Under the pieces are notes generated by a model. It was not told the DNA's origin. It saw nothing but the letters and a program-made list of their open reading frames with translations, and did not search any database. From positions 1-20,482 of IMG/VR virus record IMGVR_UViG_3300035670_010324: a stretch of DNA of 20,482 nt; one strand, written 5' to 3'. Source of the stretch: a virus. Numbering within the stretch: the first letter of the stretch is position 1; each line of letters opens with the position of its first letter. The translations under genes were made by a program, and so were the position numbers. This document shows, piece after piece, positions 208-19,195 of this stretch.

Positions 208-281
208 AAAAATTGTATTGGCAAGGAAAACATCATACATTGCATACAAGTTATCATAGGAGATTAAAAAATGGTATTTAA
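204..281 (+). CDS. Possible 25-residue His-rich peptide
   Basis: This short frame begins in an ATGA overlap with the acetyltransferase stop. A GAGGT Shine-Dalgarno sits six bases before the ATG, which is better placement than chance would usually give. The peptide starts MKKLYWQGKHHTLHTSYHRR and is rich in His, Lys and Arg. It ends 11 bases inside the next gene, which has its own AGGAGA site. I recognise no family. It may be a real small protein, or a translated spacer that couples the acetyltransferase to the aminotransferase. Confidence 0.35.
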   Translation: MKKLYWQGKHHTLHTSYHRRLKNGI

Positions 282-1365: not shown

Positions 1366-1580
1366 TTTGTGAAATAGAAAATGATAAAAATAGATTGAGA
1401 ATATCACATTATCATTATCACGGCAGGATAGTCAGAATTGTAACTAAATATGCAGAAGTTGCATTTATTTTTGATTACGATAAAAAAGGCAGAAAAAAAT
1501 ATGAAGAATTATATAAATTATTAAATAAGTGTAAATTTGGTTTATTTGTTCATCAAAAGCAAAGGATGTTACTAAAATGA
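1362..1580 (+). CDS. Small protein of unknown function (72 residues)
   Basis: This gene is joined by ATGA overlaps to the aminotransferase before it and the oxidoreductase after it, and a GGAGA site precedes its ATG, so it is very likely translated. The protein has a short His/Tyr-rich strand region (SHYHYHGRIVRIV), a hydrophobic AEVAFIFDY segment, then a Lys-rich helix (KKGRKKYEELYKLLNKCKF). It has no membrane segment and no motif I recognise. Its placement between two sugar-nucleotide enzymes could reflect a related role, but small unrelated genes inserted between others are common in phages. Confidence 0.65.
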   Translation: MICEIENDKNRLRISHYHYHGRIVRIVTKYAEVAFIFDYDKKGRKKYEELYKLLNKCKFGLFVHQKQRMLLK

Positions 1581-2578
1581 AAGGACACTGTTGCGAATGT
1601 ATAGGTTGTAATCCAGCACATGAACCGCAAGGTAGATGTGAAATGCACACAGATTTATATACAGGTAAAACTTTTAAAGCAATGAATCAATACCACGAGT
1701 ACAGATATTTAGCTAAAGAAATAATAAAAGAGGTTAAAAAAGTGAAGATTGCTTTAATCGGACGTGGGGCTTGGGGTGCAAATATCGAGCGAGTCTTGAA
1801 GTCGTTGAGAGTTGACTATGAGGTCTTTGATATTAAAGACGGTAAAACAATACATGCTGCCAAAGATTGCGAAGCTTGTATAATAGCGACTCCCGCTAAC
1901 ACACATTTTATTAATGCTTTAATTGCTTCACAACAAGGAAAGCATATTTTAATAGAAAAGCCTATGTGTACAAATGTTGAAGAAGCAAGATTATTAGTTA
2001 AACTTGTAGATTTCAATAATAAGATTTTAATGGTCGGTCATCAGTTTTTATACAACGGTGGGATAATTAAACTTAAAGAGCTAATCAAAAATAACGAGCT
2101 GGGCAAGATTTATTATATGTATTCGCAGAGACTTAAGCTAGGCAAGGTCAGAGATGATGCAGACATACTCTGGACATTCGCCCCACATGACATTTCGATA
2201 TTTAATTATTTATTAGATAGTTGTCCAAGGAGTGTGACATGTCATGGTTGGAATTATATCACAAACAAGGCAGATGTGGCGTTTTTAACTTTGAGTTATT
2301 CAAATAATGTTAACTGTCATGTGCATATAAGCTGGCTAGATAAGAACAAGACTCGAAAGATCGTAATAGTCGGCGAGAAGCAGACTGCTGTCTTTGATGA
2401 CTTGATTGAAGCACCAGAAAACGGTGAGCCATTAAAAAATGAGATAAAAGAATTTATAAACTGTATCGAAACTAACAGACAGCCAATAGCTAACGGACTT
2501 AACGGGCTTCAGGTAGTCAAAGTCTTAGAAGCTTGCCAAAAGAGTATGCAGAATAATGGCGAGGTAGTAAAGTTATGA
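1577..2578 (+). CDS. Compact Gfo/Idh/MocA-family NAD-dependent oxidoreductase with Cys-rich N-terminal extension
   Basis: Residues 57-67 (KIALIGRGAWG) form the Rossmann dinucleotide-binding loop. EKP at 127-129, GHQFLYN at 154-160 and APHD with H204 are the catalytic-domain marks of sugar-nucleotide 3-dehydrogenases (WlbA/WbpB-like). The expected reaction is NAD-dependent oxidation of a UDP-sugar C3 hydroxyl, supplying the neighbouring aminotransferase. Two things are odd. The first 55 residues are an extra domain with Cys/His spacing that could bind a metal (HCCECIGC, then C21 and H24). A good internal GTG start at 1742, preceded by AGAGG, would give a normal N-terminus. Also, the family normally has about 40 residues between FDD (275-277) and EPL (286-288), but only eight are present, so the C-terminal domain is shortened. 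Substrate assignment is inference. Confidence 0.88.
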   Translation: MKGHCCECIGCNPAHEPQGRCEMHTDLYTGKTFKAMNQYHEYRYLAKEIIKEVKKVKIALIGRGAWGANIERVLKSLRVDYEVFDIKDGKTIHAAKDCEACIIATPANTHFINALIASQQGKHILIEKPMCTNVEEARLLVKLVDFNNKILMVGHQFLYNGGIIKLKELIKNNELGKIYYMYSQRLKLGKVRDDADILWTFAPHDISIFNYLLDSCPRSVTCHGWNYITNKADVAFLTLSYSNNVNCHVHISWLDKNKTRKIVIVGEKQTAVFDDLIEAPENGEPLKNEIKEFINCIETNRQPIANGLNGLQVVKVLEACQKSMQNNGEVVKL

Positions 2579-2724: not shown

Positions 2725-2726
2725 TA

Positions 2727-3687: not shown

Positions 3688-4032
3688 ATGGTTTGGCAAA
3701 AAGGACAATCAGGAAATCCGAATGGGCGACCAGTATCGCCTTATGTTAAACAATTCAGAGATGCGCTCGCAAAAGTAGAAGGTGAAAAGGGCGTATCGCT
3801 AGTCGAACACGCAGTCAGAAAAGCATATCAAGAAAAAACCATTATGATAGAACTTCTAAAAAAAGTTCTACCAGATTTAATCAATCAAGAAATTACACAT
3901 GAAGGCAATATCAACTTAGGCGAGAAGGTACAAGAATTTGTTAAACACATCGTTGAGCGACTTCCTTCCAAAAGGAATGTTGCAGACCCTAACTCCGGAA
4001 GCGGAACAAGTAATACCACTGGAAGCGTGTAG
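3688..4032 (+). CDS. Small terminase subunit-like protein (DUF5681-type)
   Basis: The N-terminus MVWQKGQSGNPNGRPVS carries the WQKGQSGNPNGRP signature of DUF5681 proteins, which commonly sit directly before large terminase genes in phages and are taken as small terminase or DNA-recognition subunits. The middle is helical, and the Ser/Gly/Thr-rich tail (NSGSGTSNTTGS) is probably disordered. The signature at the very start fixes the ATG, although no clear Shine-Dalgarno precedes it, which is unusual among these genes. The 3' end overlaps the large terminase reading frame by up to 95 bases. The small-subunit role is from context and family knowledge. Confidence 0.75.
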   Translation: MVWQKGQSGNPNGRPVSPYVKQFRDALAKVEGEKGVSLVEHAVRKAYQEKTIMIELLKKVLPDLINQEITHEGNINLGEKVQEFVKHIVERLPSKRNVADPNSGSGTSNTTGSV

Positions 4033-5392
4033 GTATCATCCTGACGCTTTCGCTGCGCATTACTTAGTGGATTCACTCCCGTTATCAATCCCAGATTTTC
4101 ATATTGAGATTTACAATGATCTAGCCGATAGAAATTTAACTAAAATTGTTGAGATAGCGCCAACTGGATTTGCTAAGACTAGCATAGTTGGCTTTTGTGC
4201 TCCGTTATGGATTGCTTGCTATAGGCATTATAACGAAGTGTTATATATTTCGGGGTCAGGTGATTTTGCGGCTGGTAGATTACGAAGAGTAAGAGCTGAA
4301 CTAGAGAATAATGAGTATATCAGACAGGACTTTGATTTGAAGCCAGGGTCAATTTGGCGTGATGATGAGTTAGAGTTAAGTAATGGCGTAAGGTTATTAG
4401 CTAGAGGTAAAGGTTCGCAGGTTCAGGGTATGAGGCCTGACATAATCATACTTGACGATTTAGAGGATGATAAAGAGGTTAGAAGTGAGATAGAACGAGC
4501 GCATTTATGGGAATGGTTGAATTTAATTGTATTTAATCGGTTAGCTCCGGGCGGTCGGATATTTGTTATTGGTTCTTTGATTAGTAAGCTAAGTTATTTA
4601 AATAAACTGATCAGCCCGGATGCTGAGTCTAGAGGATGGCAGCATCGGATATTTAAGGCTCAAGATAAACAAGGTCGAAGTGTATGGCGTGAGCGATTTA
4701 GTGATATTGATATTGAGAATCGAAAAAGAGAGTTATCAGGTATGCCAGGTGCCTTTGAAGCTTTATATCAAGCTGATGTTTCAATGATTCAGAAGTACAC
4801 GTTTAATATGAACTGGGTTAGATATTGGAATGTATTACCAGATGACAATTTTCCGTTATATGCTTATATTGATCCAGCTGTTGGTGTTGACATTCATAAT
4901 GACTATACGGCAATCTCAATTGGCGGGATGGATGCGCAGAATAATCTCTACTTGGTAGATTTTATTAAGAAGCGATTTAATGTTGAGAGTTTAGAGCTGT
5001 TTGATGTGCTATTAGCTTTATATGATCGTTATAAGCTTAAAGGAATTGGTATTGAGACTAACGGCTTCCAGAAGTTTCTCAAAGTCTTTTTTGATATGAA
5101 GTGTAAGCAGGTCGGTAAATTCCCAAATATAATCGAGGTCAATAATTCAAGTTTAAGAACTAAAGAAGCTAGGATAAGTTCGCTAGCTCCTATGTTCCAA
5201 AGTGGTAAGTTACTAATTAATCGAAGCCATATTGGTTTAATTACAGAGCTTGAAGGTTATCCAGAGGTTGACACAGATGATGGGTTAGATAGTTTAGCGG
5301 GTTTGAAGGACATTATAGTACCGGGTAAATTGAATGCGAATAAGGGTCAGCCACATAGGTATCAGCCGAGAAACCCTTATATCAATATATGA
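3938..5392 (+). CDS. terL: Terminase large subunit (packaging ATPase and nuclease)
   Basis: This protein is the motor that pumps and cuts phage DNA into the prohead. Counting from the TTG, the Walker A-like loop is APTGFAKT at 74-81 and Walker B is DIIILDD at 168-174. The C-terminal RNase H-like nuclease has acidic residues in YIDPAVG (D312), GIETNG (E373) and DTDDGLDSLAG (D448/D451). At 484 residues it is full length. The start is uncertain: the TTG has GAGAAGG nine bases upstream, while the ATG at 3977 has a Shine-Dalgarno almost touching it. Both overlap the small subunit gene. The Walker A has Phe where Gly or Ser is more usual, a variation tolerated in terminases. Confidence 0.95.
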   Translation: MLNTSLSDFLPKGMLQTLTPEAEQVIPLEACRYHPDAFAAHYLVDSLPLSIPDFHIEIYNDLADRNLTKIVEIAPTGFAKTSIVGFCAPLWIACYRHYNEVLYISGSGDFAAGRLRRVRAELENNEYIRQDFDLKPGSIWRDDELELSNGVRLLARGKGSQVQGMRPDIIILDDLEDDKEVRSEIERAHLWEWLNLIVFNRLAPGGRIFVIGSLISKLSYLNKLISPDAESRGWQHRIFKAQDKQGRSVWRERFSDIDIENRKRELSGMPGAFEALYQADVSMIQKYTFNMNWVRYWNVLPDDNFPLYAYIDPAVGVDIHNDYTAISIGGMDAQNNLYLVDFIKKRFNVESLELFDVLLALYDRYKLKGIGIETNGFQKFLKVFFDMKCKQVGKFPNIIEVNNSSLRTKEARISSLAPMFQSGKLLINRSHIGLITELEGYPEVDTDDGLDSLAGLKDIIVPGKLNANKGQPHRYQPRNPYINI

Positions 5393-5402: not shown

Positions 5403-7175
5403 ATGAATGATGAGCAAAAGTTAGCGTATCTAGTTGGCCAATATGATAATTGGAAAACATATAGACAGAAGAATTACGATTCGGTATTCATAGAAGTATA
5501 TAAACTTTATAAATGTTTTAGGAATCGAGAAGTATCGAATTGGCAATCTAATGTATTCTTACCTTATGTTTTTTCTGTTATAGAGACTGTTTTCCCAAGA
5601 ATTATGGAATATGTGTATCAAGGTGATGAGTTTGTAAGAGCTTTACCAAGAGGTATGGAAGATTATAATCAAGCTGAAATTGTAGACAAACTTATCCAGT
5701 ATCAAATTGATACTCAAATCCAGAATCTATTTTTAGAGTTAGCTGAACATTTTAAGACATGTTTAATTTATGGGAATGGTATTGGTAAGTTGACTTGGAA
5801 TGTTAAAGAGAATAGGCCCGAGTTCTTTAATATTGATATTTTTGACTTTGTAGTAGAGCCTTATAAAAAGCATATTGAGACTATGGATGGTATGTATCAG
5901 GTTTACGATAAATTTGTAGATCAATTATTTCAATTACAGCAGGAGGGGTTAGCTGGCCATAAGAATGTAGGGAAATTATTTAGTACTTCACAGACAAAAG
6001 AAAGTGAGCCCGATAAACAGCAAAAGAATTCTGAGGTTGGTAAAAGCTCGAAATCTCAAAATAAGCGTAATAGTGCCTTAATATATGAATTTTGGGGTAA
6101 GGTGCCAATCCAAGATCGGATAGACTTAGATGCTGGTTTCTCAGCTGCCAAATACGAGGAGAAGCTAGTTTTAATAGCTAATAGAAAGCATCTAATAAGA
6201 GAAGTTCCTAATCCATATATCACATCATATAATCCAGATGGTTTTAAGCCATTTATCGCAAGCAAGAATTACATAGACCCTCAAGAGTTTTATTCAATGG
6301 GCGAGATATATCCGATTAGAGATTTACAGCATGAAGCGAATGAACTTGAGAATAATATGCTTGATAATCTTAAAATTATAATTAATCGGATGTGGCAGGT
6401 GACTCATACAGCTGGTATAGACTTGGATACACTTTATAGTTATCCAGGCGCTATATTCCAAACTAACGAGCTCGACCAGTTAAGGCCGATAGATCATAGA
6501 GATATTCCGCCTAGCTATTTTGAGTCTAGGCAGCACAGGCTTCAGGATATAGATAAAGCGACTGGAGTTTATGATTATACTAGAGGCGCTAATACGCCAG
6601 GAATGACAGATACTGTAGGCGGGATAACAAGTTTAATTGAAGAAGCTAATATGCGTTTTGGCGTAAAGATTAAAGTCCTGCAGATGACAAGTATAACCGA
6701 GTTCGCTCGCAAGCTTTTTATGTTAGATAAGATTTTTATAAGAGGTGCTGATTTCCCTGTAAGGATAGCTAACGAAGAGGGTTATGGTTGGATAACGATA
6801 AGTGAGGATAATCTAGCTGGCATGTATGATTTTAAGCCTATTGGTGTAAGTATGTTAGGCAATAAGTTAGCTCGCCAGAATGCTTTAATAAGGCTTGGCG
6901 AATTGTTTAGTAAATTCCCGCCAATTCCACCTTTAGCTGAGCAAATCTTAAAAGAGTATGACATGAAGAATACAGATCAGGTAATGAGTTATCTTAGAAT
7001 GATGTGGGGGATGCCTGTAGAGGGAGCAGGCGCTCCTCCGATTCCTGCGGGTACCCGTGGACAAGGTATCCCTCTGCCTTCCAGTATAGCTGCAGGTAAC
7101 CCGCAGGTAATGCCAAATACTGATGCGGAGTTAAATCAAAATTTAGGGAAGCAGTTAGCTGCTGGAATGAGGTGA
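5403..7175 (+). CDS. Portal protein
   Basis: This 590-residue protein follows the large terminase with a GAGAGGTAA ribosome site. The N-terminal region (YKCFRNREVSNWQSNVFLPY, then a helix-rich section ending in CLIYGNGIGKLTWNV) and overall length match portal proteins of tailed phages, which form the dodecameric ring at the DNA-entry vertex. Residues about 194-224 are Lys/Ser/Gln-rich and probably a disordered loop. Residues from about 535 to the end are Pro/Gly-rich, a likely flexible tail. Gene order (terminase, portal, scaffold, capsid) supports the call independently of sequence. Confidence 0.9.
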   Translation: MNDEQKLAYLVGQYDNWKTYRQKNYDSVFIEVYKLYKCFRNREVSNWQSNVFLPYVFSVIETVFPRIMEYVYQGDEFVRALPRGMEDYNQAEIVDKLIQYQIDTQIQNLFLELAEHFKTCLIYGNGIGKLTWNVKENRPEFFNIDIFDFVVEPYKKHIETMDGMYQVYDKFVDQLFQLQQEGLAGHKNVGKLFSTSQTKESEPDKQQKNSEVGKSSKSQNKRNSALIYEFWGKVPIQDRIDLDAGFSAAKYEEKLVLIANRKHLIREVPNPYITSYNPDGFKPFIASKNYIDPQEFYSMGEIYPIRDLQHEANELENNMLDNLKIIINRMWQVTHTAGIDLDTLYSYPGAIFQTNELDQLRPIDHRDIPPSYFESRQHRLQDIDKATGVYDYTRGANTPGMTDTVGGITSLIEEANMRFGVKIKVLQMTSITEFARKLFMLDKIFIRGADFPVRIANEEGYGWITISEDNLAGMYDFKPIGVSMLGNKLARQNALIRLGELFSKFPPIPPLAEQILKEYDMKNTDQVMSYLRMMWGMPVEGAGAPPIPAGTRGQGIPLPSSIAAGNPQVMPNTDAELNQNLGKQLAAGMR

Positions 7176-7393: not shown

Positions 7394-7701
7394 ATAGTGA
7401 ACAGCTGAATGTTATTAACGATGTTATTCAAGATATTAATATTCCCGACCCGTTAGATATTAAATTCAATAAATTATCTAATGACATGAATGATTTAGTT
7501 AAATCTCCAGCTTGGCAGCAATTAGTTTTAGACTGGACAAAATTGAGAGAGCAGTTAGTTAATTTGCTTTTAGAAGCTAAAACAATTAAAGAGATGCAGG
7601 GTTTACAGAATAGAATTAAAGACCTTGATCTAATAATAGCTAGCCCTAAGAAGCATCTTAGACAGTCAGAAATATATTTGAAAAGGAGACATAAATGGTA
7701 G
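7390..7701 (+). CDS. Coiled-coil protein before the scaffold (103 residues)
   Basis: The protein is almost wholly helical, with heptad-like spacing in LVKSPAWQQLVLDWTKLREQ and IKEMQGLQNRIKDLDLIIAS and a basic C-terminus (LKRRHKW). It is translationally coupled upstream (ATGA) and overlaps the scaffold start by seven bases. It lies in the head module and may assist assembly, but no family is recognised. Confidence 0.7.
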   Translation: MNSEQLNVINDVIQDINIPDPLDIKFNKLSNDMNDLVKSPAWQQLVLDWTKLREQLVNLLLEAKTIKEMQGLQNRIKDLDLIIASPKKHLRQSEIYLKRRHKW

Positions 7702-8684
7702 AGCAAAACCCAACCCCAGTGGCAACGCCTGAAATTGCGCCCACTAGTGCTGGAACTTCTATACCATCTCAAGCGACACAAGTTGGAGCTACGCCTTCTA
7801 ATCCTAATTTTAGTAGCATGACAAGTGCGGATATAGCTGAGATGATTGCAAAGTTAAACCAGCCGGGCGGTGAACCTTCTCCAGTAACAGAGGGAAAACC
7901 GCAAGTTAATGAAGCATTACAGAAAGAAGGTAGTAAGCCAGTAATTCCGCCTAAATTCTTGAATCCAGACGGGAGTCCGAATGTTGAGGCTTTAGCTAAG
8001 AGTTATGCTGAAATAGAGAAAGCTTATGGCAGATCGATGAATGCATCTAAAGAAAACGAAGAGCTTAAAAATCAGGTTGCGTATATGAACCAGATAGTAG
8101 CTGATGTTAAGGCTAGTTACGATGATCTAAAAAATCAAATCAGCCAGCCTGGATCACAACCCGGGACACAGCAGCCAACTCCTGAGAGGGTATATACTCC
8201 TGAAGAGCTAGAGTTATTAGAGAAGAATCCGGGCGAATTCGTTAGACGTGAGGCTCGCAAAGAGGTTGACGCTCTTAAGAGGGAACTATTACAGAAGGAT
8301 GATAAATCAAAAGAGGAAGCTCGGGTAGCGAGACTTGTTGATTATGAGATGTTCACAGCTCTTAATCGAGCTAGGCAATCGTTACCTAGTTTTCAAGCTT
8401 TAGAGCCTAAGATCGCTGAACTTATTAATCAGCCGTTTATTAATCAGCATCCAGACGCTATACCATTTGCTTATTATAGTTTACTAGGTCAGCAGATGCC
8501 ACAGATAGCTGAGAGCATAAGAAATGATTATTATAAGCAAGGTTACGAAGCTGCGAAAGCTGATTTAGCTAAACAGGTTGAGGGTGGTGGCCGAGATACC
8601 GCTCCTGCAACGGCTGGGTTAGAGAATATAGACATTAAAAAAGCGACATCTGATCAATTAGCGAAGGTGTTGCCTAGATATTAA
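7695..8684 (+). CDS. Probable capsid scaffolding protein
   Basis: The position directly before the major capsid gene and the composition both fit an internal scaffold that guides prohead assembly and then leaves. The first 90 residues are Pro/Ser/Thr-rich and likely disordered. A KFLNPDGSPNVEALAKSYAE segment and a coiled coil (NEELKNQVAYMNQIVADVKA) follow, then a second Pro/Gln-rich linker and charged helices. No protease motif is visible, so scaffold removal by cleavage would need another protein. AAAGGAG seven bases before the ATG marks the start. Scaffolds diverge quickly, so the call rests on context and composition. Confidence 0.75.
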   Translation: MVEQNPTPVATPEIAPTSAGTSIPSQATQVGATPSNPNFSSMTSADIAEMIAKLNQPGGEPSPVTEGKPQVNEALQKEGSKPVIPPKFLNPDGSPNVEALAKSYAEIEKAYGRSMNASKENEELKNQVAYMNQIVADVKASYDDLKNQISQPGSQPGTQQPTPERVYTPEELELLEKNPGEFVRREARKEVDALKRELLQKDDKSKEEARVARLVDYEMFTALNRARQSLPSFQALEPKIAELINQPFINQHPDAIPFAYYSLLGQQMPQIAESIRNDYYKQGYEAAKADLAKQVEGGGRDTAPATAGLENIDIKKATSDQLAKVLPRY

Positions 8685-8686
8685 AA

Positions 8687-8725: not shown

Positions 8726-8736
8726 GTCGATATGTT
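8708..8736 (+). promoter_or_regulatory. Candidate promoter for the major capsid gene
   Basis: TTGAAA (one mismatch to TTGACA) and TATGTT (two mismatches to TATAAT) are spaced by exactly 17 bases. The -35 element lies in the second copy of the 13-base tandem repeat. Extra transcription of the capsid gene would make sense because its product is needed in hundreds of copies. The -10 match is weak. Confidence 0.35.
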
Positions 8737-8780
8737 AAAAAAGGGATAGTTAGAATCTTAAAAGAAAGGAGAATTATTTT

Positions 8781-9896
8781 ATGGCAACTATACATGAACC
8801 AATGACGACTACTGCTAACGCTGCTCAATATGTAGTACATCAATATTATGATAAGCGTTATTTAGAGCGTTTAATTGCTTCAATGTATTGGTATCAGGGC
8901 TGTGAAAAGCGAGAGCTACCAAAGAATACTGGTAAAAAAGTATGGTTTCATGCTTACAAGAAACTTGGTATTGGAACAAACCTCACAGAAGGCACCAAAC
9001 CAACTTCGAAAGTCATGTCATCGTACAATGTATCCGCTCAATTAACTGAATACGGAGATTTTACTTCCGTATCAGATGTTATGGAATTGACCGCTATAAG
9101 TAGCGTAATCGAACAGGCAGTGGATGTTCTTGCAGAACAGAGTGCTGATACTATGGATAAATATATTAGATATATGGCCTTTAATGGCGCAATGCATATA
9201 ACACCAGTTGGCAAGTCTTTGTCGGTAGGTGTAAGGCAAAGATATACAGGATCAGCTAGTGCTATGAGTGCGTTCCATAATAAAGTTATAGGTTTCACTT
9301 TGTTGGAAGTTGGTAGTTTATCGGGCGTAGGTGCAGCCGGAGCTATTTCAGCATCTGCAAACTTTGGAACCTCAGCTTGGGAAAAGAAGATTACGTTAAG
9401 GGATGTAAGAAAAGCTGTTACACTCTTGAGACAGCGTAATGTTCAGCCTCTTGATGGCCAGTATTTCTTAGGTATAGCATCTCCAGGTGCGTTAGAACAT
9501 TTGAGAGATGATACCGCAACTGGTGGCTGGGTTGATTGGCAGAAATATACAGATAATACGCCTATGATGAAGGGTGAAGTAGGCAGGGCAGAGAGAGTCC
9601 GATTTGTTGAGACTACAAATGCCTGGGATTATCCGTTAGGTAATGCGAATCTATCAGTTACGATTATAACCGTTATTGGTAAAGGTGCGCTTGGAGTAGT
9701 CGATTTTCAATCTGTTCAAGATGTTCAAAATGGCAAGAATGAGAACTCGATTATTATAAAGAGAGCAAATCAGTATCAAACACTTGATCCTCTCGATCAG
9801 GTAGCTGGCACCGTAGGGTGGAAATGGATTATTGCAGCTTCAATCTTGAATCCGTCTTGTGGAGTACACTTGATGGGTATAAGGAAAGCAGCGTAA
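8781..9896 (+). CDS. Major capsid protein (N4-gp56 family)
   Basis: The sequence follows the HK97-fold N4-gp56 capsid family pattern: ELPKNTGKKVWFHAYKKLGI, then LTEGTKPTSKVM, then QLTEYGDFTSVSDVMELTAI and EQAVDVLAEQSADTMDKYIR. At 371 residues it is close to the usual family length. AAAGGAG precedes the ATG. No N-terminal delta domain or cleavage site is evident, which agrees with a separate scaffold gene just upstream. A stable hairpin follows the stop. I am confident of the family. Confidence 0.93.
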   Translation: MATIHEPMTTTANAAQYVVHQYYDKRYLERLIASMYWYQGCEKRELPKNTGKKVWFHAYKKLGIGTNLTEGTKPTSKVMSSYNVSAQLTEYGDFTSVSDVMELTAISSVIEQAVDVLAEQSADTMDKYIRYMAFNGAMHITPVGKSLSVGVRQRYTGSASAMSAFHNKVIGFTLLEVGSLSGVGAAGAISASANFGTSAWEKKITLRDVRKAVTLLRQRNVQPLDGQYFLGIASPGALEHLRDDTATGGWVDWQKYTDNTPMMKGEVGRAERVRFVETTNAWDYPLGNANLSVTIITVIGKGALGVVDFQSVQDVQNGKNENSIIIKRANQYQTLDPLDQVAGTVGWKWIIAASILNPSCGVHLMGIRKAA

Positions 9897-9969: not shown

Positions 9970-10137
9970 ATGAAAAAGCGCAGATACAAATTGTATCATC
10001 GTGCAAAAACAAACGAAGAACAAAGAGGGCGGGATAATATTTACTACCAAGAGTATAGTGTTGGTGATGGAGTATTTAAGATATTTCCAGAATTAGAGCT
10101 AGAGTTAGGGTCGAATTTAACTGATAAGGAATGGTAA
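9970..10137 (+). CDS. Small protein of unknown function (55 residues) before the radical SAM gene
   Basis: GAGGTGAG precedes the ATG, and the stop is two bases before the preferred radical SAM start. The N-terminus is basic (MKKRRYKLYHRAKTNEEQRG) and the rest acidic (FPELELELGSNLTDKEW), with no cysteine. A virion role is possible because it follows the capsid gene. A short peptide directly before a SPASM-type radical SAM enzyme could also be that enzyme's substrate. Neither is shown. Confidence 0.65.
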   Translation: MKKRRYKLYHRAKTNEEQRGRDNIYYQEYSVGDGVFKIFPELELELGSNLTDKEW

Positions 10138-10139
10138 AA

Positions 10140-11189
10140 ATGGTAGAAGAATGGCATTCAGAATATAATTCTTTTAATTCTTGGAAAGGTTTAATGTATA
10201 TTGAACATTATAGAGCTATTCTTAAAGGCGAATTCTTACCTCCAATAGAGGTTAATCTTGACCCTGTTAATCAATGTAATTTAGCTTGTGTATGGTGTAA
10301 TAATGCTATTACCAGAACACGTAATATTATTATGCCGATAGATAAAATTTTGAAGTTGATAGAGTATCTTAAAAAATGGGGTGCGAAAGCTATTTGTGTG
10401 GCTGGAGGTGGTGAGCCAACTTTGCATCCTAATTTAGATCAAATATTTGATTTTTGTAAATTTATGGATATGCCAATAAGCATTTTAACTAACGGGACTT
10501 TTAAGTATGATTGGCATATTCCATCAGTAGCTGAAGTATCACGTTGGATTGGTGTAAGCCTGGATTGTGCGACTAAAAAGACTTATTTGAAATTAAAGAA
10601 ATCAGATAAATTTGATGTTGTAATTAATAATATGAAACTAATTGCTCAGTATGGCACTAAAGAGCTTACATATAAGTTTCTATTACATCCTGATAATCAA
10701 TATGAAGTTTATAAAGCTATTGAGCTCGCTAAAGACATAGGATGTCAAAGAATTCACATAAGGCCTTTAGCGTTTATGTATTTTCAAGATTGTGAAGCTG
10801 ATTATGATATTGGTTCTATTAATGATCAAGTTATAGAGGGCAGAGGTATTTTTGAAGATGATAATTTTAAGGTATTTTATGTTCAGCATAAATACAATAA
10901 AGATTTGCATAGAACTTTTAATTTTAAGAAATGTTTAGCTACTCCTATAATGATGATGATCGAGGCTAATGGTGATGTAATGTTATGTATTGATCGTAAG
11001 AATGAGCCTTCAATGTGTATAGGAAATGTTTATAAAAATGAGTTAAAGGAAATATGGGGAAGTGATCAGCATAAACGAGTAATTGAAGGTGTAAATTTGA
11101 AAGACTGTCAAAAATGCACTTTTAATAAATATAACGAACAGATCGAAAAAGCAGTTATAAATAATGCTTTAGATTATGAATTTACTTAA
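10140..11189 (+). CDS. Radical SAM enzyme with SPASM-like C-terminal cluster
   Basis: CNLACVWC (cysteines 46, 50 and 53) is the CX3CX2C motif that binds the catalytic [4Fe-4S] cluster and SAM. GGGEPTLHP is the usual SAM-contact strand. The C-terminus has C-X12-G-X4-C (CLATP to VMLC), another Cys nine residues later, and a DCQKC pair. That is fewer than a full two-cluster SPASM domain and suggests one auxiliary cluster (twitch/SPASM-like). Relatives modify peptides or small molecules by radical chemistry, and the substrate cannot be read here. AAGGA nine bases upstream favours this ATG over one nine bases earlier. It lies between the capsid gene and a membrane-anchored virion-like protein, an unusual place for this enzyme. 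Confidence 0.9.
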   Translation: MVEEWHSEYNSFNSWKGLMYIEHYRAILKGEFLPPIEVNLDPVNQCNLACVWCNNAITRTRNIIMPIDKILKLIEYLKKWGAKAICVAGGGEPTLHPNLDQIFDFCKFMDMPISILTNGTFKYDWHIPSVAEVSRWIGVSLDCATKKTYLKLKKSDKFDVVINNMKLIAQYGTKELTYKFLLHPDNQYEVYKAIELAKDIGCQRIHIRPLAFMYFQDCEADYDIGSINDQVIEGRGIFEDDNFKVFYVQHKYNKDLHRTFNFKKCLATPIMMMIEANGDVMLCIDRKNEPSMCIGNVYKNELKEIWGSDQHKRVIEGVNLKDCQKCTFNKYNEQIEKAVINNALDYEFT

Positions 11190-11655: not shown

Positions 11656-13308
11656 ATGGGAAAAGCAAAGAAAAAGAAATTTAGTTTTTGTATACCGAAC
11701 TATAAATGTTCGGATACTCTTGCGAAATGTTTAGGGTCAATTAAAGATCAGGATTATCCGGAAGTAGAGATTATTGTTGTTAATGATAGCCCTGATCCAT
11801 CTGCTGATGAAGTCTTAAAGGCATTTTCGGAAGTTAAAACTACATGTACAGGTCCTGAGCCTATGGGTGCTCCTTACGCCAGGAATCTTGCGTATTCGAT
11901 GTCAACTGGCGATTATATAAGCTTTTTAGACCCTGACACTTATTTATTACCGGGGGCTATAAGAGCTTGGAGTGAAGCTTTTGACGAGAATCCAGATTGT
12001 GGATTTGTTTATTCAGGCTATAAAATTAAGGGCCTTGAAGGGTTTTATCCTAGTGAACCTTTTGATCCTTATTTTTTAGAGATTAATAATTATATTAATG
12101 GTATGAACCCTATGCGTAGAGAGGTTTTTCCATCCAATGGTTGGGATGTTAATTGCAAATCATTACAAGACTGGGATTTATGGCTTAGGATTATTAAAAG
12201 CGGTGTAAAGGGTTATTATTTAGGGGATAAGGTCTTTTATTATGAAACCGAGCCACCTAAAAAGCAGGGTATTTCAGCGGATAGCCATAATAATTGGTTA
12301 GCTAGAAAAGAATATATCCAGAAGAAGCTTAATTTACCGGTTAGGGATATATGCATAACTTCTTTAGCAGCACCTGAGCATGCTAGAAGAATATCCAAGC
12401 TTATGGGGATTGATTATTGTTACTGGGAGATGCTTTCATTAAAACCTCATAAGTATAAATTAGTTTATTTATTAGGCATGTTTCCAGGTAATGGGTCAAG
12501 AAATTTTGTGCCATTTTATAGTAATGAATCATTAACTTTTAAACCTAACTTAAAATGCGTAATTCACTGGATAGGGACCGATATAGTACACATGAGGACT
12601 ATGGCTACATTCCAGCAGCTTCAAGCTTTAGTAACTGGTTATAACAAACGATTTACTCAGTTTTGTCAAAGTGAATCTAATCAAAAGGAGCTCAAAGAGT
12701 TAGGGATAAAAGCTGAGCTACTACCATTGCCGGTTGAGGTGCCTATAATTAAGGCATTTGATATGCCGGTTGAATTTACAGTTGCTATTTATGATCATGG
12801 TCAAAGTCGAGAAGATGTATATTGCAAAGCTTTAATGAGTGATATTGTAAAATCTTGCCCAGATATTAAGTTTATATTCTTTGGTGAAGAGCATAATATT
12901 GGTAAAGAGAACAATTATCAATTCTTAGGCAGGGTTAATATTGACGATGTTATTAAGCAATCCAGTTGTTTGCTTAGAATTACTAGACATGATGGTTTTC
13001 CTGTAACCCCAGTTGAATTTATAGTTCATAACAGGCCTACAATAACAAGCAATAAATACCCGTATCAGATAAAAGTTGATTTTGATGGAACTCTAAGCGA
13101 TATGAATGTTCCTGTTTTAAAGAAGCGGATAATAAATGAGCTTAGGAAGTTAAAAGCTAATGAATCTGAAAAGATAGATTTTGATGCTGCTAGAAATTAT
13201 TATAGACAGATACTAAGTCCGCATAAACTAAAGAGACGGCTTAAAACGTTGTCTATGGTGACTACGGTGACTGGGAATGCTAGTTCAACGCAGGGAGGGG
13301 GAAAATGA
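11656..13308 (+). CDS. Two-domain glycosyltransferase (GT2 plus GT-B-like)
   Basis: Residues about 9-220 are a GT-A family 2 domain: FCIPNYKCSDTLAKCLGSIK, then EIIVVND, the metal-binding DPD at 92-94, and QDWDLWLR at 171-178 with the likely catalytic base. Residues from about 230 look like a GT-B fold. FIFFGEEHNIG is followed by FLGRVNIDDVIKQSSCLLRI and HDGFPVTPVEFIVHNRP, resembling the donor-binding half of GT4-type enzymes. One protein may therefore add two sugars in sequence. Its neighbours are a Ser/Thr-rich protein upstream and another glycosyltransferase coupled by ATGA downstream. Donor and acceptor are unknown. The GT2 part is firmer than the GT-B part. Confidence 0.85.
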   Translation: MGKAKKKKFSFCIPNYKCSDTLAKCLGSIKDQDYPEVEIIVVNDSPDPSADEVLKAFSEVKTTCTGPEPMGAPYARNLAYSMSTGDYISFLDPDTYLLPGAIRAWSEAFDENPDCGFVYSGYKIKGLEGFYPSEPFDPYFLEINNYINGMNPMRREVFPSNGWDVNCKSLQDWDLWLRIIKSGVKGYYLGDKVFYYETEPPKKQGISADSHNNWLARKEYIQKKLNLPVRDICITSLAAPEHARRISKLMGIDYCYWEMLSLKPHKYKLVYLLGMFPGNGSRNFVPFYSNESLTFKPNLKCVIHWIGTDIVHMRTMATFQQLQALVTGYNKRFTQFCQSESNQKELKELGIKAELLPLPVEVPIIKAFDMPVEFTVAIYDHGQSREDVYCKALMSDIVKSCPDIKFIFFGEEHNIGKENNYQFLGRVNIDDVIKQSSCLLRITRHDGFPVTPVEFIVHNRPTITSNKYPYQIKVDFDGTLSDMNVPVLKKRIINELRKLKANESEKIDFDAARNYYRQILSPHKLKRRLKTLSMVTTVTGNASSTQGGGK

Positions 13309-14594
13309 AAAAGGTAACTACACATAAAAAAAAGTTGAAACAACCAAAAGAAGTCAAAGAAGTCAAGGTAACATTTTGTGTGCCAGCGTATAATAAAGTT
13401 GAATATTTAGCGGATGCTATAGAATCATTTTTAGAACAAAAATATGATAATAAAGAGTTACTTATTGGCGACGATGCAAGTACTGATTATACGGAGCAAT
13501 TAGCTACTTGGTATGCAAATAAATATCCAAATATTAGATATATAAGAGTTAATGCTAATATAGGTGTCGCTAATATGCGTAATTTATTAATAGATGAAGC
13601 TAAAGGTGATATTATTTTTATTAATGACGCTGATGATATGAGCGAAACAAATCGAATAATTAGTACTATGGCAGTTTTTAATAAAGAGCCTGAAATAGGT
13701 GTTGTATATGGCGATTGTGCAGTTATAAATGGGCTTGGTTTCCAGCATAGCACTTTAGGTTCTCAAGAAATGCAGGTATGGAAACTTAAGCATGAGAATT
13801 TTGTACCTCATCCTACGGTAGCGTTTAGGAAATCGGTAGGCATTAAATATCGGAAGGACTTGAATTTTATTGATGATTGGTATTTTTATCTAGATTGCAT
13901 TAAGCATGGCATTAAATTTAAGTATATTCCTGCTACATTAGCTGTTTATAGGCCTATAATTTCAGGTTTAACACTTAAAGATGGTTTTAGTAATAAAGAC
14001 AAGGAATTAAAAAAAGAGGTTTTGAGGCAAGAATTCAAGGATTTTGATGATGATATAACTGAAAATCTAAAGAATAAACCTCAGCAGAAAGTTAGAGTAA
14101 AGCGGATACTTAAAGAGATAGCTAATGAGTCAAAGGTGCTTGATTTAGGGTCAAATGGAGGTTATATAGCAGAGTTACTTGAGAAGAAAGGATGTCAAGT
14201 TAAATGCTATGAGATAGCTTCTAATTTAGTTGATATTTGTAAAGCTAAAGGCCTTGATGTCGAAAGAGTAGATGCTAGAAATTTTAATGATTATGATAGT
14301 TATGATATTGTCTTAGCTGGAGACATATTAGAACACATGGGTAATGAAGATGTTAAAAAGGTGCTTGAAAATAGCTATAACGCATTAAAAAAAGATGGGA
14401 AATTTATAGCGACTGTTCCGTATAAACATTCGTTCTATAATGCTGATAGAATAGTTGAGCATATCAAGGATTATTCGCTAGATGATTTTAATAAGTTATT
14501 TGATAGATTCGAATATAAAGCAGAACCTATTTATGTAGGTGATATGTCAGTTAGCTTATGGCTATTTATAACTGGTACTAAAAAAGAGGGCTGA
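13305..14594 (+). CDS. Glycosyltransferase family 2 fused to a SAM methyltransferase
   Basis: After a Lys-rich lead, residues about 22-215 form a GT2 domain: TFCVPAYNKVEYLADAIESF, LLIGDDAST, and the nucleotide-sugar/metal motif DAD at 108-110. Residues about 262-429 are a class I methyltransferase with motif I VLDLGSNGG at 278-286, acidic E303 after the second strand, and GDILEHMGN near 339-346. The fusion suggests that a transferred sugar is methylated, which in polysaccharides can block further extension. It begins in an ATGA overlap with the preceding glycosyltransferase gene. Substrates cannot be read from sequence. Confidence 0.88.
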   Translation: MKKVTTHKKKLKQPKEVKEVKVTFCVPAYNKVEYLADAIESFLEQKYDNKELLIGDDASTDYTEQLATWYANKYPNIRYIRVNANIGVANMRNLLIDEAKGDIIFINDADDMSETNRIISTMAVFNKEPEIGVVYGDCAVINGLGFQHSTLGSQEMQVWKLKHENFVPHPTVAFRKSVGIKYRKDLNFIDDWYFYLDCIKHGIKFKYIPATLAVYRPIISGLTLKDGFSNKDKELKKEVLRQEFKDFDDDITENLKNKPQQKVRVKRILKEIANESKVLDLGSNGGYIAELLEKKGCQVKCYEIASNLVDICKAKGLDVERVDARNFNDYDSYDIVLAGDILEHMGNEDVKKVLENSYNALKKDGKFIATVPYKHSFYNADRIVEHIKDYSLDDFNKLFDRFEYKAEPIYVGDMSVSLWLFITGTKKEG

Positions 14595-14605
14595 TTTTTG
14601 AAATT

Positions 14606-15559
14606 GTGAAGATACTATGTTTTTGGCTAATAAATTATATAGCGGAAAGCTATGAAAATTGTCATTATTTGCCTGCTTTAAAAGATTTGGGGCATGATGT
14701 CAAGTTATTTCCGCAAGAACACGCTTATGATAGTAAGTTATTAGATATTATTGCTCTTTGGCAGCCTGATTTAGCTTTTTTTGTACCCCATAAAATGGGT
14801 GATATCAGGCCTGAAACTTATAAATATATAAGTGATCATACAAAGACTACTACTTTCGCTTATTTTGGTGATGATGAAAAAGAGTTTGACATAAACGAAC
14901 CTTGGGATTCAAAGCATTTATGCCATAATTTTAATTATATTGGCACAAATCATGAACCTGCTCTTAAATGGTACAAAAAGATTGGTTATAACAATGCTAT
15001 TTACAGTCAATATGGCGGTTATGAAAAACTATTTAAGCCAAGTAAAATAAAAAAAGAAATTCCAACTTCGTTTATAGGCTCAATTAAGATGGTAAGAGTT
15101 AAGTTTTTGAATAAACTTGCATATTTAGGTGCTAGATTCCAAGTTTACGGACATGGCTGGACACCGGGCGATATTTGTGATGAAAAGATGCTTCATCCCA
15201 AAGAATATGTAGCTGTTATTAATTTAAGTAAGATAAATTTAGATTTGAATAGAGATGAAACCAAATATGGCATTAAATGTCAGCAAATTAAAGGCCGAGA
15301 CTTTGAAGTTCCGTTAGCGGGTGGTTTTTTATTATGCGAATATTTTAAAGAAATAGGGCAGTATTATAAATTAGGCACTGAGATAGAAACATTTAAAGAT
15401 GTGTTTGAATGTAAAGACAAGATTGATTATTACTTGAAAAATGAATCGAAGCGAGAGAAGATCGCTTTAGCGGGCAGAAGGCGAGCAATTAATGATCATA
15501 CATATTCTAAACGGTTTAAGATTTTGTTAGATAAGCTAAAGTTAAAAAAGACATTATGA
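14606..15559 (+). CDS. CgeB-like glycosyltransferase (GT-B fold)
   Basis: The C-terminal half has the CgeB/Glyco_trans_1_2 pattern: QQIKGRDFEVPLAGGFLLCE around 227-245, then LGTEIETFKDVFECKDKIDY and a final ALAGRRRAINDHTYSKRF segment. The N-terminal half is a Rossmann-like domain (MKILCFWLINYIAESYENCH; QPDLAFFVP). The family contains sugar transferases, some active on spore-surface or other surface polysaccharides. GTG is the likely start because it gives the standard MKIL opening, but the nearest AGAGGG is about 15 bases away. The stop is joined by ATGA to the next small gene. Confidence 0.87.
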   Translation: MKILCFWLINYIAESYENCHYLPALKDLGHDVKLFPQEHAYDSKLLDIIALWQPDLAFFVPHKMGDIRPETYKYISDHTKTTTFAYFGDDEKEFDINEPWDSKHLCHNFNYIGTNHEPALKWYKKIGYNNAIYSQYGGYEKLFKPSKIKKEIPTSFIGSIKMVRVKFLNKLAYLGARFQVYGHGWTPGDICDEKMLHPKEYVAVINLSKINLDLNRDETKYGIKCQQIKGRDFEVPLAGGFLLCEYFKEIGQYYKLGTEIETFKDVFECKDKIDYYLKNESKREKIALAGRRRAINDHTYSKRFKILLDKLKLKKTL

Positions 15560-15714
15560 AACAAGAAGAATTTGATAAACAAATGGTTGGTAAATTCATA
15601 TTTGGTGATTTGATTGATAAGCAGTTAGCTAAGCAGCTGATGGCAATAAAAGAAAGAGGGAATACAAAAAATGGGTATAAGAAAGATAGTCGATCCTTTA
15701 AAATCGAAGTTTAA
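15556..15714 (+). CDS. Small protein of unknown function (52 residues)
   Basis: It begins in an ATGA overlap with the CgeB-like gene and runs 44 bases into the next glycosyltransferase gene in another frame. The first part is helical and charged (MKQEEFDKQMVGKFIFGDLI), and the tail is basic where it overlaps the next gene. The overlap may serve translational coupling. No family is recognised. Confidence 0.5.
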   Translation: MKQEEFDKQMVGKFIFGDLIDKQLAKQLMAIKERGNTKNGYKKDSRSFKIEV

Positions 15715-16900
15715 GATTTTTTTTAACTGGACTACTAATCCTGGTACTACTTTTTACAGGATGATTAATCCAGCTAAATATATGCGTAAGATTAAAGATG
15801 TGCAAGTTGCTTATGATAGTTATAGCCCACAAGGTTCTGAAAGTTGGGAGTCTGTAATTATGAAAGATGATAAAAGTGCTAACAAAGTTATTGATGATTT
15901 ATATAGATTAATGAGAACAGCTGATATATCTGTTTGGCAGCGATGCCATAATGATTTAAGTACATCTGTAATGCTTGGATTTAGGGATAAAAGACTTGAT
16001 TTATATAATAAGGCGATGCTCCTAGAAATAGATGATGACGCTTTGAATGTAAACGCTGAAAATCAAGCTAGTCAGGTCTTTTATCCAGGAAGTGATATGA
16101 CTGATATGGTAAAAGATCAGCTTTCTTTTGCATCTGGCTTAATAGTATCAACTGAGTATCTCAAAAGACTTTATAGTGAGTATAATCCTTATATTGAAGT
16201 AATTCCTAATGGAATTGACTTTGAAATTTGGGGTAAACTTGTTAAACCTATTAGAGTTAATAAGAAGGTGCGTATAGGCTGGGCTGGTTCTTCAGCACAT
16301 GAGGAAGATATGAAGATTATAAGTAAAGTTATACCGGTTATCTTAAATAAATATAAGGATGTTGAATTTATGTTCTTTGGCCATGCGTCTAGCCATATTA
16401 AATACAATGGATACAACGTCTTGCATCATAGAAACTCTAAAGGTCATTTGATTTGGAATAATATAGCTGATTATCCTCAAGAATTAGCTAATTTGAATTT
16501 TGATATTGGTATTGCTCCTTTAAGGGATAATAGTTTTAATAGAGCAAAGTCTAATTTACGATTTTTGGAATATGCCGCGTTAGGTATTCCAACTGTAGCG
16601 AGTAATATTGAGCCTTTTAAAAACACGAAGAGTGACGGACTTATGAAAGTAACAGAAACTGAAGATTGGATAGAGGCATTAAGTATTTTAATAGAACACG
16701 AAGCTAAAAGAAAGACTATTGGTAGAATTGCATATAGAGATGTTAAACGAGATTATAATATAAAAGATATAGCTGATAAATATGTTGATATATTAAGGAA
16801 ATTTCATTCTGGTAAATTAAAATCTCAAATTAGAGATATTTCACCTGAAATGTTTGATAAGACTAAACGAATTAATAGGGAATATGGGATTTACCAATAA
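15671..16900 (+). CDS. Glycosyltransferase, GT4/GT1-like (GT-B fold)
   Basis: The linker VIPNGIDFEIW (177-187) and GWAGSSAHEED (203-213) start the donor-binding domain, and the E-x6-GIPTVAS signature lies at 300-311 (EYAALGIPTVAS), after a Lys/Arg-containing SNLRFL. These are standard GT4 marks for NDP-sugar binding by retaining enzymes. The N-terminal half (NPGTTFYRMINPAKYMRKIK) would bind the acceptor. GAAAGAGGG ten bases before the ATG sets the start. It is the fourth glycosyltransferase gene in a row, consistent with stepwise building of one glycan, whose composition is unknown. Confidence 0.9.
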   Translation: MGIRKIVDPLKSKFKIFFNWTTNPGTTFYRMINPAKYMRKIKDVQVAYDSYSPQGSESWESVIMKDDKSANKVIDDLYRLMRTADISVWQRCHNDLSTSVMLGFRDKRLDLYNKAMLLEIDDDALNVNAENQASQVFYPGSDMTDMVKDQLSFASGLIVSTEYLKRLYSEYNPYIEVIPNGIDFEIWGKLVKPIRVNKKVRIGWAGSSAHEEDMKIISKVIPVILNKYKDVEFMFFGHASSHIKYNGYNVLHHRNSKGHLIWNNIADYPQELANLNFDIGIAPLRDNSFNRAKSNLRFLEYAALGIPTVASNIEPFKNTKSDGLMKVTETEDWIEALSILIEHEAKRKTIGRIAYRDVKRDYNIKDIADKYVDILRKFHSGKLKSQIRDISPEMFDKTKRINREYGIYQ

Positions 16901-17348
16901 AACAGCTTCCGATATACTGGCTGGGCCTGTCAAGCCTGAAGTAATAACAAAATCAGAGGGGAAAACTGATGTCTTAAATTTAGAGCCCGATAAAGGGGAT
17001 AGGCCTTTTATAGGTTATGAGGGTATGTATAAACGTCCTTATACAGCTGATTTCTTTAATTTAAGTTATTATACCGAACTTAATGATAAAAATGACGTTA
17101 ATAAGATACGTTCTAAGGTCAAAGGAATTGAAGATTTTATTAAGCAAGAGATACAAGATAAAGGGTTAGAAGATTCAACATCTACTTATAGAGATTTTAT
17201 TAAACGAATTATGGGTTATATTGGTGAGTCTAAAAAAGATGAGAAGCTTTTAGATCGAGTGGCTAGTTTTTTAGATTTAATAAAGCAAATACGTGATCAC
17301 GACAAGAAAATAGCTAAAAAAATGGAATCTCTTGGAGTTAAACAATGA
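16884..17348 (+). CDS. Unknown helical protein (154 residues)
   Basis: The chosen ATG gives MGFTNKTASDILAGPVKPEV and has TAGGGA just upstream. An in-frame TTG 30 bases earlier lacks a good site. The gene overlaps the end of the glycosyltransferase gene and is coupled to the next by ATGA. Residues from about 65 are charged helices, with a conspicuously Lys-rich C-terminus (KQIRDHDKKIAKKMESLG). No membrane segment or known domain is visible. Its location suggests a structural or assembly role. Confidence 0.7.
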   Translation: MGFTNKTASDILAGPVKPEVITKSEGKTDVLNLEPDKGDRPFIGYEGMYKRPYTADFFNLSYYTELNDKNDVNKIRSKVKGIEDFIKQEIQDKGLEDSTSTYRDFIKRIMGYIGESKKDEKLLDRVASFLDLIKQIRDHDKKIAKKMESLGVKQ

Positions 17349-17677
17349 GTACGAATAACAAGACTAAATGGACTGAGCAAGAGATTATGAATATGTCTCT
17401 TGATGATGAGCTTGATGTACCGTTATTAACGGTTGGATTAAAAACGTATCATCCTTCTGGCGGTTGGCTACCGTTCCCGATAGCAAATATATATCCTATA
17501 GCCCAGATGGATCGAACAAGTGGTTATTTAGATTATTATGGTGTTAATGCTGATAGGTCAGCGTCAGATGATGCCACAGACTGGGTTATATTTAAGTTTA
17601 CTAGAAATGGATCGGGCGAAGTAACTAAAATTCAATCGAAGGTCGGTACGTGGACAGCACGCGCCTCGGGATGGTAA
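17345..17677 (+). CDS. Small probable virion protein (110 residues)
   Basis: Its ATGA overlap with the upstream gene and position next to a tail-fibre-like gene suggest a virion component. After a polar start comes a beta-like domain with many aromatics (GGWLPFPIANIYPIAQMDRT; TSGYLDYYGVNAD; DWVIFKFTRNGSGEVTKI), ending in GTWTARASGW. Short domains of this W/Y/G-rich type are common in phage receptor-binding or baseplate regions, but I cannot name a family. Confidence 0.65.
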   Translation: MSTNNKTKWTEQEIMNMSLDDELDVPLLTVGLKTYHPSGGWLPFPIANIYPIAQMDRTSGYLDYYGVNADRSASDDATDWVIFKFTRNGSGEVTKIQSKVGTWTARASGW

Positions 17678-17680: not shown

Positions 17681-19195
17681 ATGGCTGAAGTAATGGATTT
17701 TCCTACTGGGTTGCCTGTAGATTGTTTAGCTTCTGGTATTGTATCGACAGCTAAACATTATACTGGTTTTCCTGATAAGACTAGCGCGACAGACCCATCT
17801 TCGATATCATGGGATGATTCTACTTATACATTGACTTTAGCACCTTCAAGTTCAACTCATAATATATATATAAATGGTGTTAAATACGCAATAAGTTCTT
17901 TGACTAAACAATTAACAGTAGCGCAGGAAGCTGCTACTGGTTTATATTGGTTTTGGTTAACTGCGACTGCTGGGGTAGTTTCATTGAATTGCAGTACTAC
18001 CCAACCTGGTTTTGATGTTTGTTTAGTAGCGACTGTCTATTGGAATACTACAACTAGTAAAGGCATTTTATCAGATGAACGGCACTGGTATGGCCGTGAT
18101 AAATGGATGCATGAATATTTACATGAAACTATAGGTGCTAGATTTGCAGTTGGTTTAACAGGTACATTTACAGATACAACTTTTGAAGTAGGAGCTGGCG
18201 AATTTTATGATGAAGATATCGAACATGATATATCAGCGCAAACTACTTGCAAGGTCTTATATCATAACGGTGATGCCGATTGGGCTTGGGTTGCAGGGTC
18301 AACTACACCTTATAAGACAGTTAATCCGGGTGTTGATGATACACTTCAATATAACAATGGGAATAGTCTTGCGACAGTAGATAATAACAAATATGTGAAT
18401 ATGTGGGTATTTATAACACCTGATATGACTCATTCAGTTCATATTGTTATAGGTACAGCCCAATATGCAACTATTGCATTAGCAAGAGCAGCTACAGTTC
18501 CAAGCCTGGGGACTCTAGGTACTGCTGAGAATAAGTTGATATATAAGGTTACTTACCAAAACAATGGTGGTACTCCTGATTATATCGAAACTACAGATTA
18601 TAGAACTTCGTCTAATCTACCGGTATCTAGTTATGTTGCGCCAGATCACGGTGCATTAACAGGTTTGAGTGATGATGATCATACTCAATATTTGCTAGTT
18701 AATGGTACAAGAGATATGACTGGCTATGCTGTTTTAATGGCTAGTCAAATGCAAGTTGATAATTCTTCTACTTATATTGATAAGGATGGATCAGGCAATA
18801 TGACTTTTACAGATGCTGTAACTGGTACCAGAACACTCAAACAGCTTGGCTGCCCTACTTATAAGAAGTTGACAGCAACAGGCCAAAGTGCTGGTAGCCT
18901 TAACTTGACTCATGCGTCTTGGGGTATTTCTAAGTCTTGGCTTAAAAGATTAGTAATCACAATAGCTAGTGGTTCTAGCTCAGATTATGATGTAGCAATT
19001 TACGAAAAAGATACTTTTGCGGCTAGTTTGGTTATTTATTCTTTGACTGATAATAACGATAGTATAGATATTATTTTAGATTGCATTTATGAAGATCAAG
19101 ATGATACTGATGAGCTGCACATCAAAATTACTGATAATGACGGAACAGGTAGCCCTACTTTCGATATTGAAGTAAGAGGGATAGAGTTATTATAA
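17681..19195 (+). CDS. Tail fibre-like protein
   Basis: The 504-residue protein is Ser/Thr/Asp/Gly-rich with strand repeats throughout. HGALTGLSDDDHTQYLLVNG at 323-342 is a motif found in many phage tail fibres and adsorption proteins, usually at a trimer register-setting point. The N-terminal ~150 residues (MDFPTGLPVDCLASGIVSTA onward) probably attach it to the virion. The C-terminal ~120 residues form a separate beta domain (SSSDYDVAIYEKDTFAASLV) that may bind the receptor. No chaperone or enzyme motif is visible. The Shine-Dalgarno is weak, with the start three bases after the previous stop. Confidence 0.82.
   Translation: MAEVMDFPTGLPVDCLASGIVSTAKHYTGFPDKTSATDPSSISWDDSTYTLTLAPSSSTHNIYINGVKYAISSLTKQLTVAQEAATGLYWFWLTATAGVVSLNCSTTQPGFDVCLVATVYWNTTTSKGILSDERHWYGRDKWMHEYLHETIGARFAVGLTGTFTDTTFEVGAGEFYDEDIEHDISAQTTCKVLYHNGDADWAWVAGSTTPYKTVNPGVDDTLQYNNGNSLATVDNNKYVNMWVFITPDMTHSVHIVIGTAQYATIALARAATVPSLGTLGTAENKLIYKVTYQNNGGTPDYIETTDYRTSSNLPVSSYVAPDHGALTGLSDDDHTQYLLVNGTRDMTGYAVLMASQMQVDNSSTYIDKDGSGNMTFTDAVTGTRTLKQLGCPTYKKLTATGQSAGSLNLTHASWGISKSWLKRLVITIASGSSSDYDVAIYEKDTFAASLVIYSLTDNNDSIDIILDCIYEDQDDTDELHIKITDNDGTGSPTFDIEVRGIELL

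Follow-up and report, generated by a model that had tools for sequence, protein, structure and literature searches.

The window analyzed here, a 20,482-base virus record (IMGVR_UViG_3300035670_010324), carries a cassette of four glycosyltransferase (GT) genes, GT1 to GT4, behind the gene encoding its major capsid protein (MCP). We propose, with moderate confidence, that an uncultured podovirus-like lineage inherits this cassette vertically as a core module and uses it to make an amino-sugar glycan with a methyl modification, whose most likely carriers are virion proteins. A preliminary description of the window had noted the cassette and favored virion proteins as the acceptor. The observation was confirmed and is stronger than first stated, and the virion-acceptor interpretation was partly supported.

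Enzymes of the glycosyltransferase cassette

All four GT genes proved to be intact open reading frames (ORFs) on the plus strand, located between the MCP gene and a fiber-like gene (Table 1). As the preliminary description had counted, Pfam and PHROG matches assigned five GT domains and one methyltransferase domain to these four genes, and the flanking genes agreed with that description: an SU10/P22-type portal, an MCP of PHROG 1357, a radical SAM/SPASM enzyme, and a fiber-like ORF. GT1 begins with a domain of the GT2 family type (Pfam, 3e-21), followed by a C-terminal GT-B stretch that is the weakest domain call (5e-5; 24.0 bits, slightly below the Pfam cutoff of 27.0). The AlphaFold2 model of GT1 (mean pLDDT, 83.7; pTM, 0.80) contains strands and helices enough for two successive domains, and Foldseek matched it to GT-B enzymes alongside GT-A enzymes, with SenB and TarM among the GT-B matches. 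Because of this model and these matches, we accepted the GT-B half of GT1 despite its score. The product of the second gene, GT2, joins a GT2-type domain (4e-27) to a class I methyltransferase domain (1e-11; both Pfam). The GT-A domains carry DxD motifs (DPD and DAD).

Linkage of the cassette to the capsid gene

Viral contigs scanned with a single MCP or GT4 sequence gave no matches, and two-sequence profiles were required to retrieve relatives; the relatives' contigs are mostly incomplete, and the counts given here depend on the patterns used for the scans. The GT1 profile retrieved 48 full or partial GT1 loci, equivalent to 43 distinct viral contigs. An MCP homologue was encoded upstream on the same strand in all 43 of these contigs, although they had been retrieved by GT1 alone. 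As a control, we considered 21 further matches of the same scan that covered only part of the generic GT2-type domain, and none was accompanied by an MCP homologue. Retrieval by capsid recovered GT1 in every contig with at least 9.6 kb downstream (21/21); four had not previously been retrieved. Two contigs, L018 and L039, each carry two separate ORFs that match the capsid hidden Markov model (HMM), possibly split or duplicated MCP genes. The cassette is not a requirement across the whole capsid family, since Bacillus phage Page and a gut phage have the capsid but not the cassette. No full-length GT1 was found in 50,697 phage records, and a scan of genome contigs based on weak peptide patterns returned generic GT2-family enzymes only.

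Gene order was maintained in the closest relative, L083 (portal, scaffold, MCP, radical SAM, GT1, GT2/methyltransferase, GT3, GT4, p164, p110), whose GTs share 42 to 50% identity with those of the window, the same range as portal (50%) and MCP (47%). In L007, a contig retrieved with the GT4 profile, the order is portal, scaffold, MCP, DegT aminotransferase, GT1, GT2, DNA methylase, and a methyltransferase-GT4 fusion. The preliminary description had suggested looking for this neighborhood in other viruses, and we found the same gene order in dozens of divergent viral contigs, a recurrence that is not attributable to chance. It had also named an early or lysogenic-conversion position in related phages as evidence to the contrary; the cassette lay behind the capsid gene throughout. 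An integrase was detected in 6 of 30 contigs, and none was seen in most contigs near 40 kb in length.

A direct search for the radical SAM gene detected it in three members only: the window, L083, and MW202801.1, a podovirus-like record from the Manatee Spring metagenome. Its homologues lie between MCP and the GTs in both L083 (48% identity) and MW202801.1 (26%; 19640-20704). MW202801.1 resembles the window in its order of portal, MCP, radical SAM, GT, methyltransferase, GT4, and tail genes; the full row before the tail genes reads capsid, radical SAM, GT, PhyH, methyltransferase, NodB-like, and GT4. It differs in having neither GT1 nor amino-sugar genes and in carrying the PhyH and NodB-like genes and an integrase.

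Conservation of GT1 and methyltransferase fusions

Median pairwise identity among relatives was higher for GT1 (33%) than for MCP (28%) and portal (20%). Tree distances correlated more strongly between GT1 and MCP (rho, 0.76; partial correlation given portal, 0.65) than between MCP and portal (0.47). GT1 behaves as a core gene. By themselves, conservation and covariation do not name the acceptor, because the GT1 and capsid genes are linked and the portal alignments are noisier. Ratios of nonsynonymous to synonymous substitution (dN/dS) against L083 were uninformative because synonymous sites were saturated in most genes.

The fusion partner of the methyltransferase differs among lineages: it is GT2 in two loci (the window and L083), GT4 in 11, and GT1 in 17, and elsewhere the methyltransferase stands alone. 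Such permuted fusions form the pattern that would be expected of steps in one pathway.

A predicted amino-sugar pathway

At the left end of the window, three genes encode predicted sugar-nucleotide enzymes. The top match of the aminotransferase in the PDB, 7B0D (342 bits), is a protein without a verified function; it was followed by QdtB (281 bits), the 2OGA transaminase (280 bits), and WbpE (259 bits), with weaker matches to the characterized 4-aminotransferase 7L7X (168 bits) and ArnB (151 bits). The lower score of 7L7X relative to WbpE agrees with C3 specificity. Pcryo_0638 and Pcryo_0637 were considered as 2,3-diacetamido enzymes and dropped, given that their published product is a 2,4-diacetamido sugar. 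For the Gfo/Idh protein, the best NCBIfam model was UDP-GlcNAc 3-dehydrogenase (9e-39, below the model cutoff). The acetyltransferase is cut by the edge of the window; the full-length homologues in relatives are nearest in the PDB to WxcM-like, lipopolysaccharide (LPS) biosynthesis, and QdtC N-acetyltransferases. By homology, the set of 3-dehydrogenase, 3-aminotransferase, and N-acetyltransferase is encoded in the window and in 15 relatives, where these genes usually sit between capsid and GT1.

In bacteria, the WbpA/B/E/D/I route converts UDP-GlcNAc to UDP-ManNAc3NAcA in five steps (PMC10622841). A five-enzyme set resembling this route was detected in four contigs (L015, L017, L022, and L050). 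The relatives' 2-epimerase is nearest to UDP-2,3-diacetamido-GlcA 2-epimerase (189 bits, versus 108 for the UDP-GlcNAc 2-epimerase 1F6D) and is accompanied by a short WecC-like dehydrogenase with a GGHC motif. In the c14 family (L013, L015, L016, L017, and L032), a dehydrogenase of ∼240 amino acids (aa) had no Pfam match and aligned to WecC in the middle and around the catalytic Cys; it is possibly a reduced UDP-sugar 6-dehydrogenase. The preliminary description had called the window a complete viral glycosylation program. A coherent late-operon glycan pathway with methyl modification, tied to the left-end sugar-nucleotide genes, is borne out. "Complete" is too strong for the window alone, because the window begins inside the acetyltransferase gene and contains no visible 6-dehydrogenase or 2-epimerase.

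Layout of the window and late-region proteins

The late operon runs on one strand from the DNA methylase through terminase, portal, scaffold, capsid, radical SAM/SPASM enzyme, and GT cassette to small proteins and fiber-like genes (Table 1). The radical SAM/SPASM enzyme could catalyze a sugar- or peptide-modifying step. The 136-residue protein is a possible surface or head protein; its predicted model is unreliable (pLDDT, 45.5).

Table 1. Features of the 20,482-base window, whose 5' end falls inside a hexapeptide acyltransferase gene
Feature	Position	Strand	Evidence or remark
Hexapeptide N-acetyltransferase, C-terminal part (WbpD/WlbB/QdtC-like)	1..207	+	Cut by window edge; 8.9e-18 vs HMM of relatives' N-acetyltransferase family
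DegT-family sugar aminotransferase, C3 (WbpE/QdtB/DesV) type	271..1365	+	Pfam PF01041, 1.9e-111
Gfo/Idh/MocA oxidoreductase, UDP-GlcNAc(A) 3-dehydrogenase-like (WbpB/WlbA-like)	1577..2578	+	PF01408/PF22725; matches 3-dehydrogenase family of relatives' cassettes
N6/N4 DNA methylase	2658-3401		Near GT cassette
Terminase large subunit	3938..5392	+	PHROG 38, 1.5e-82; true start possibly further in
Portal protein, SU10/P22-type	5403..7175	+	SU10_portal, 1.1e-26; PHROG 1216
Putative scaffold protein	7695..8684	+	Between portal and MCP; 32% identity to L083 protein at equivalent site
MCP	8781..9896	+	PHROG 1357, 2.5e-48
Radical SAM/SPASM enzyme	10131..11189	+	PF04055, 6e-20; SPASM, 3.7e-10; CxxxCxxC at residue 49
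136-residue protein, hydrophobic N-terminal segment	11200..11610	+	Homologues behind MCP in L043, L047, L054, L211
GT1: GT-A (GT2 family) + GT-B double glycosyltransferase	11656..13308	+	Pfam, AlphaFold2, Foldseek
GT2: GT-A glycosyltransferase fused to S-adenosylmethionine (SAM) methyltransferase	13305..14594	+	Pfam
GT3: GT-B glycosyltransferase (Glyco_trans_1_2)	14606..15559	+	Pfam, 6e-26
GT4: GT-B glycosyltransferase, FNRAKSN motif	15671..16900	+	PHROG 7162 "glycosyltransferase," 3e-46
Small protein	16854..17348	+	Kept between GT4 and fiber genes in about ten relatives
Small late protein	17345..17677	+	Present in L083 at 43% identity
Fiber-like protein, 504 aa, DHGALTGLSDDDHTQYL-type motif	17681..19195	+	Sequence features only; no family match

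Many late proteins, including 905-aa tail-like proteins, fiber-like proteins, and the 136-residue family, begin with N termini resembling Sec-type signal peptides, which is unusual for virion proteins of tailed phages. Such starts were located at 19455-20480 and 11200-11610 of the window, in the fiber-like ORF of L083 (49-1938, minus strand), and in L013, L016, L026, L032 to L034, L041, L042, L047, and L053 to L055. By a crude heuristic whose hits include Rossmann-fold false positives, 44 of 724 genes were signal-peptide-like, compared with 9 of 385 genes in controls. Fiber-like proteins with Ser/Ala-rich repeats (VSAxxxDAxxLxVSA) follow GT4/p164 in L011 (14531-17170), L018, L024, and L027; these are possible dense O-glycan acceptors.

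Discussion

We propose that a short glycan is made in the host cytosol late in infection. Host UDP-GlcNAc would be oxidized at C3 (in some relatives also at C6), aminated, and N-acetylated to yield a 2,3-diacetamido sugar, which the GTs would transfer, one by one with other sugars, to the acceptor. Methylation would cap or trim the chain. With a capsid-surface or fiber protein of the virion as acceptor, particles would be released with a phage-specified coat of methylated amino sugar. A virion protein is the most likely acceptor because the cassette occupies the virion operon in every member, is strongly conserved, and covaries with the capsid. It is also favored because the cassette occurs with and without integrase, because there is precedent in mycobacteriophages, and because no membrane GT, flippase, polymerase, or initiating transferase was seen: none of the 833 genes in 48 loci encoded a protein with at least four predicted membrane helices, whereas the E. 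coli controls WecA and WzxE were detected.

Several points weigh against this proposal. The virion-protein acceptor is inferred, with neither an acceptor sequence nor a protein-glycosylating GT identified, and the enzyme assignments are by homology. Among enzymes of known structure, those nearest to the GT-A half of GT1 use lipid-linked, teichoic-acid, or polysaccharide acceptors; cytosolic GTs could act on lipid-linked host glycans at the inner leaflet, and coinheritance with the capsid could stem from linkage within one operon. The 136-residue protein, which had been proposed as an acceptor, was found in four relatives only.

The main rival explanation, which we consider unlikely, is late modification of the host surface, in which soluble GTs add the methylated diacetamido sugar to an inner-leaflet lipid-linked glycan or to the LPS core and so block superinfection or readsorption of progeny to debris. 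Soluble peripheral GTs can use membrane-bound acceptors, the structural neighbors of the GT-A domain include wall-teichoic-acid and polysaccharide enzymes, and some members carry an integrase. Moreover, O antigens contain diacetamido sugars of this type (PMC10622841). However, none of the membrane components named above was seen in the loci, the cassette is always placed among virion genes, and most contigs near 40 kb show no integrase. Accessory conversion genes would not be expected to surpass capsid and portal in conservation, as GT1 does. Serotype conversion of the GtrABC type, with its GtrA flippase and membrane-spanning GT, is disfavored by the absence of such membrane proteins from the 48 loci and by the rarity of integrases. 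A secreted or small-molecule glycan with no virion role, either a glycolipid or a peptide modified by the radical SAM/SPASM enzyme, appears very improbable. SPASM enzymes often modify peptides, and one stands beside the GTs in the window, L083, and MW202801.1; yet its detection in these three members only, against the general occurrence of GT1, GT4, and the methyltransferase, indicates that it is not the core activity, and no transporter was seen in the loci.

Hypermodification of DNA bases by the GTs is the reading to which we give least credence. Phage GTs are able to glycosylate DNA (Pyle 2024, cited in PMC12619734), and the window has a DNA methyltransferase gene close to its cassette, as L007 has one within the cassette (8241-9332). 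The methylase is of the N6/N4 type, however, and yields no hydroxyl handle. No thymidylate-synthase-type (hydroxymethylase, PF00303) gene was detected in 30 possibly incomplete contigs, with a positive control detected. TET/JBP (PF12851) likewise gave no match in the relatives' possibly incomplete contigs, in a search whose positive control was also silent. Furthermore, the GTs are tied to the capsid rather than to replication genes, and DNA glycosylation would not usually involve several successive GTs together with a sugar pathway.

GT, epimerase, and aminotransferase genes of environmental phages are customarily read as auxiliary functions for remodeling the host surface. Here, such genes make up a module that constantly accompanies the capsid gene in one lineage, and its lead enzyme is better conserved than the capsid. 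If the virion is indeed coated, phage particles can bear self-made sugar coats supplied by their own amino-sugar pathway, with relevance to particle stability, adhesion, evasion of antibodies or defenses, and the way in which virome surveys tally such genes. About 45 natural variants are provided for finding which GT acts when.

Among known systems, the bacterial WbpA/B/E/D/I pathway has its five enzyme classes represented, by homology, in the four contigs named above and three of them in the window. It differs in that the predicted version described here is phage-borne, with a short putative 6-dehydrogenase (∼240 aa) that matches only the middle of WecC. The source study for virion glycosylation in the mycobacteriophages Che8, Corndog, and Myrna is reportedly that of Freeman et al. 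in 2023. These phages likewise encode GTs, and glycans have been reported on their capsid and tail-tube subunits; they infect other hosts, and the portions of the accounts consulted mention neither a phage-encoded diacetamido-sugar pathway nor GT-methyltransferase fusions (PMC12363180, PMC12619734).

In chlorovirus PBCV-1, the A064R protein, considered with A061L, has a GT-GT-methyltransferase composition and makes a methyl-capped glycan that the major capsid protein carries, and some nucleotide-sugar synthesis is virus-encoded (PMC9614988). The phage GT1-methyltransferase fusions (17 loci) arrange these activities in the same order; the likeness concerns function and layout, and we claim no homology. 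PBCV-1 infects green algae, domain 1 of A064R resembles GT family 34 and domain 2 represents a new GT family, and the genes are expressed early (PMC9614988). We put forward only tentatively, as a possibility short of our general proposal, that the lineage described here has a phage counterpart of chlorovirus capsid glycosylation: a lineage-wide, capsid-bound, methylated 2,3-diacetamido glycan that would be obligatory for the particle and made through a nucleotide-sugar pathway encoded by the lineage itself, with assembly by a GT-A/GT-B/methyltransferase enzyme. The structural fibrils of Mimivirus and other Megavirinae are decorated by similar gene clusters, which combine synthesis of rare amino sugars with GTs and sugar methyltransferases, although these giant viruses of eukaryotes use other sugars, such as viosamine and 2,4-diNAc sugars (PMC10117803).

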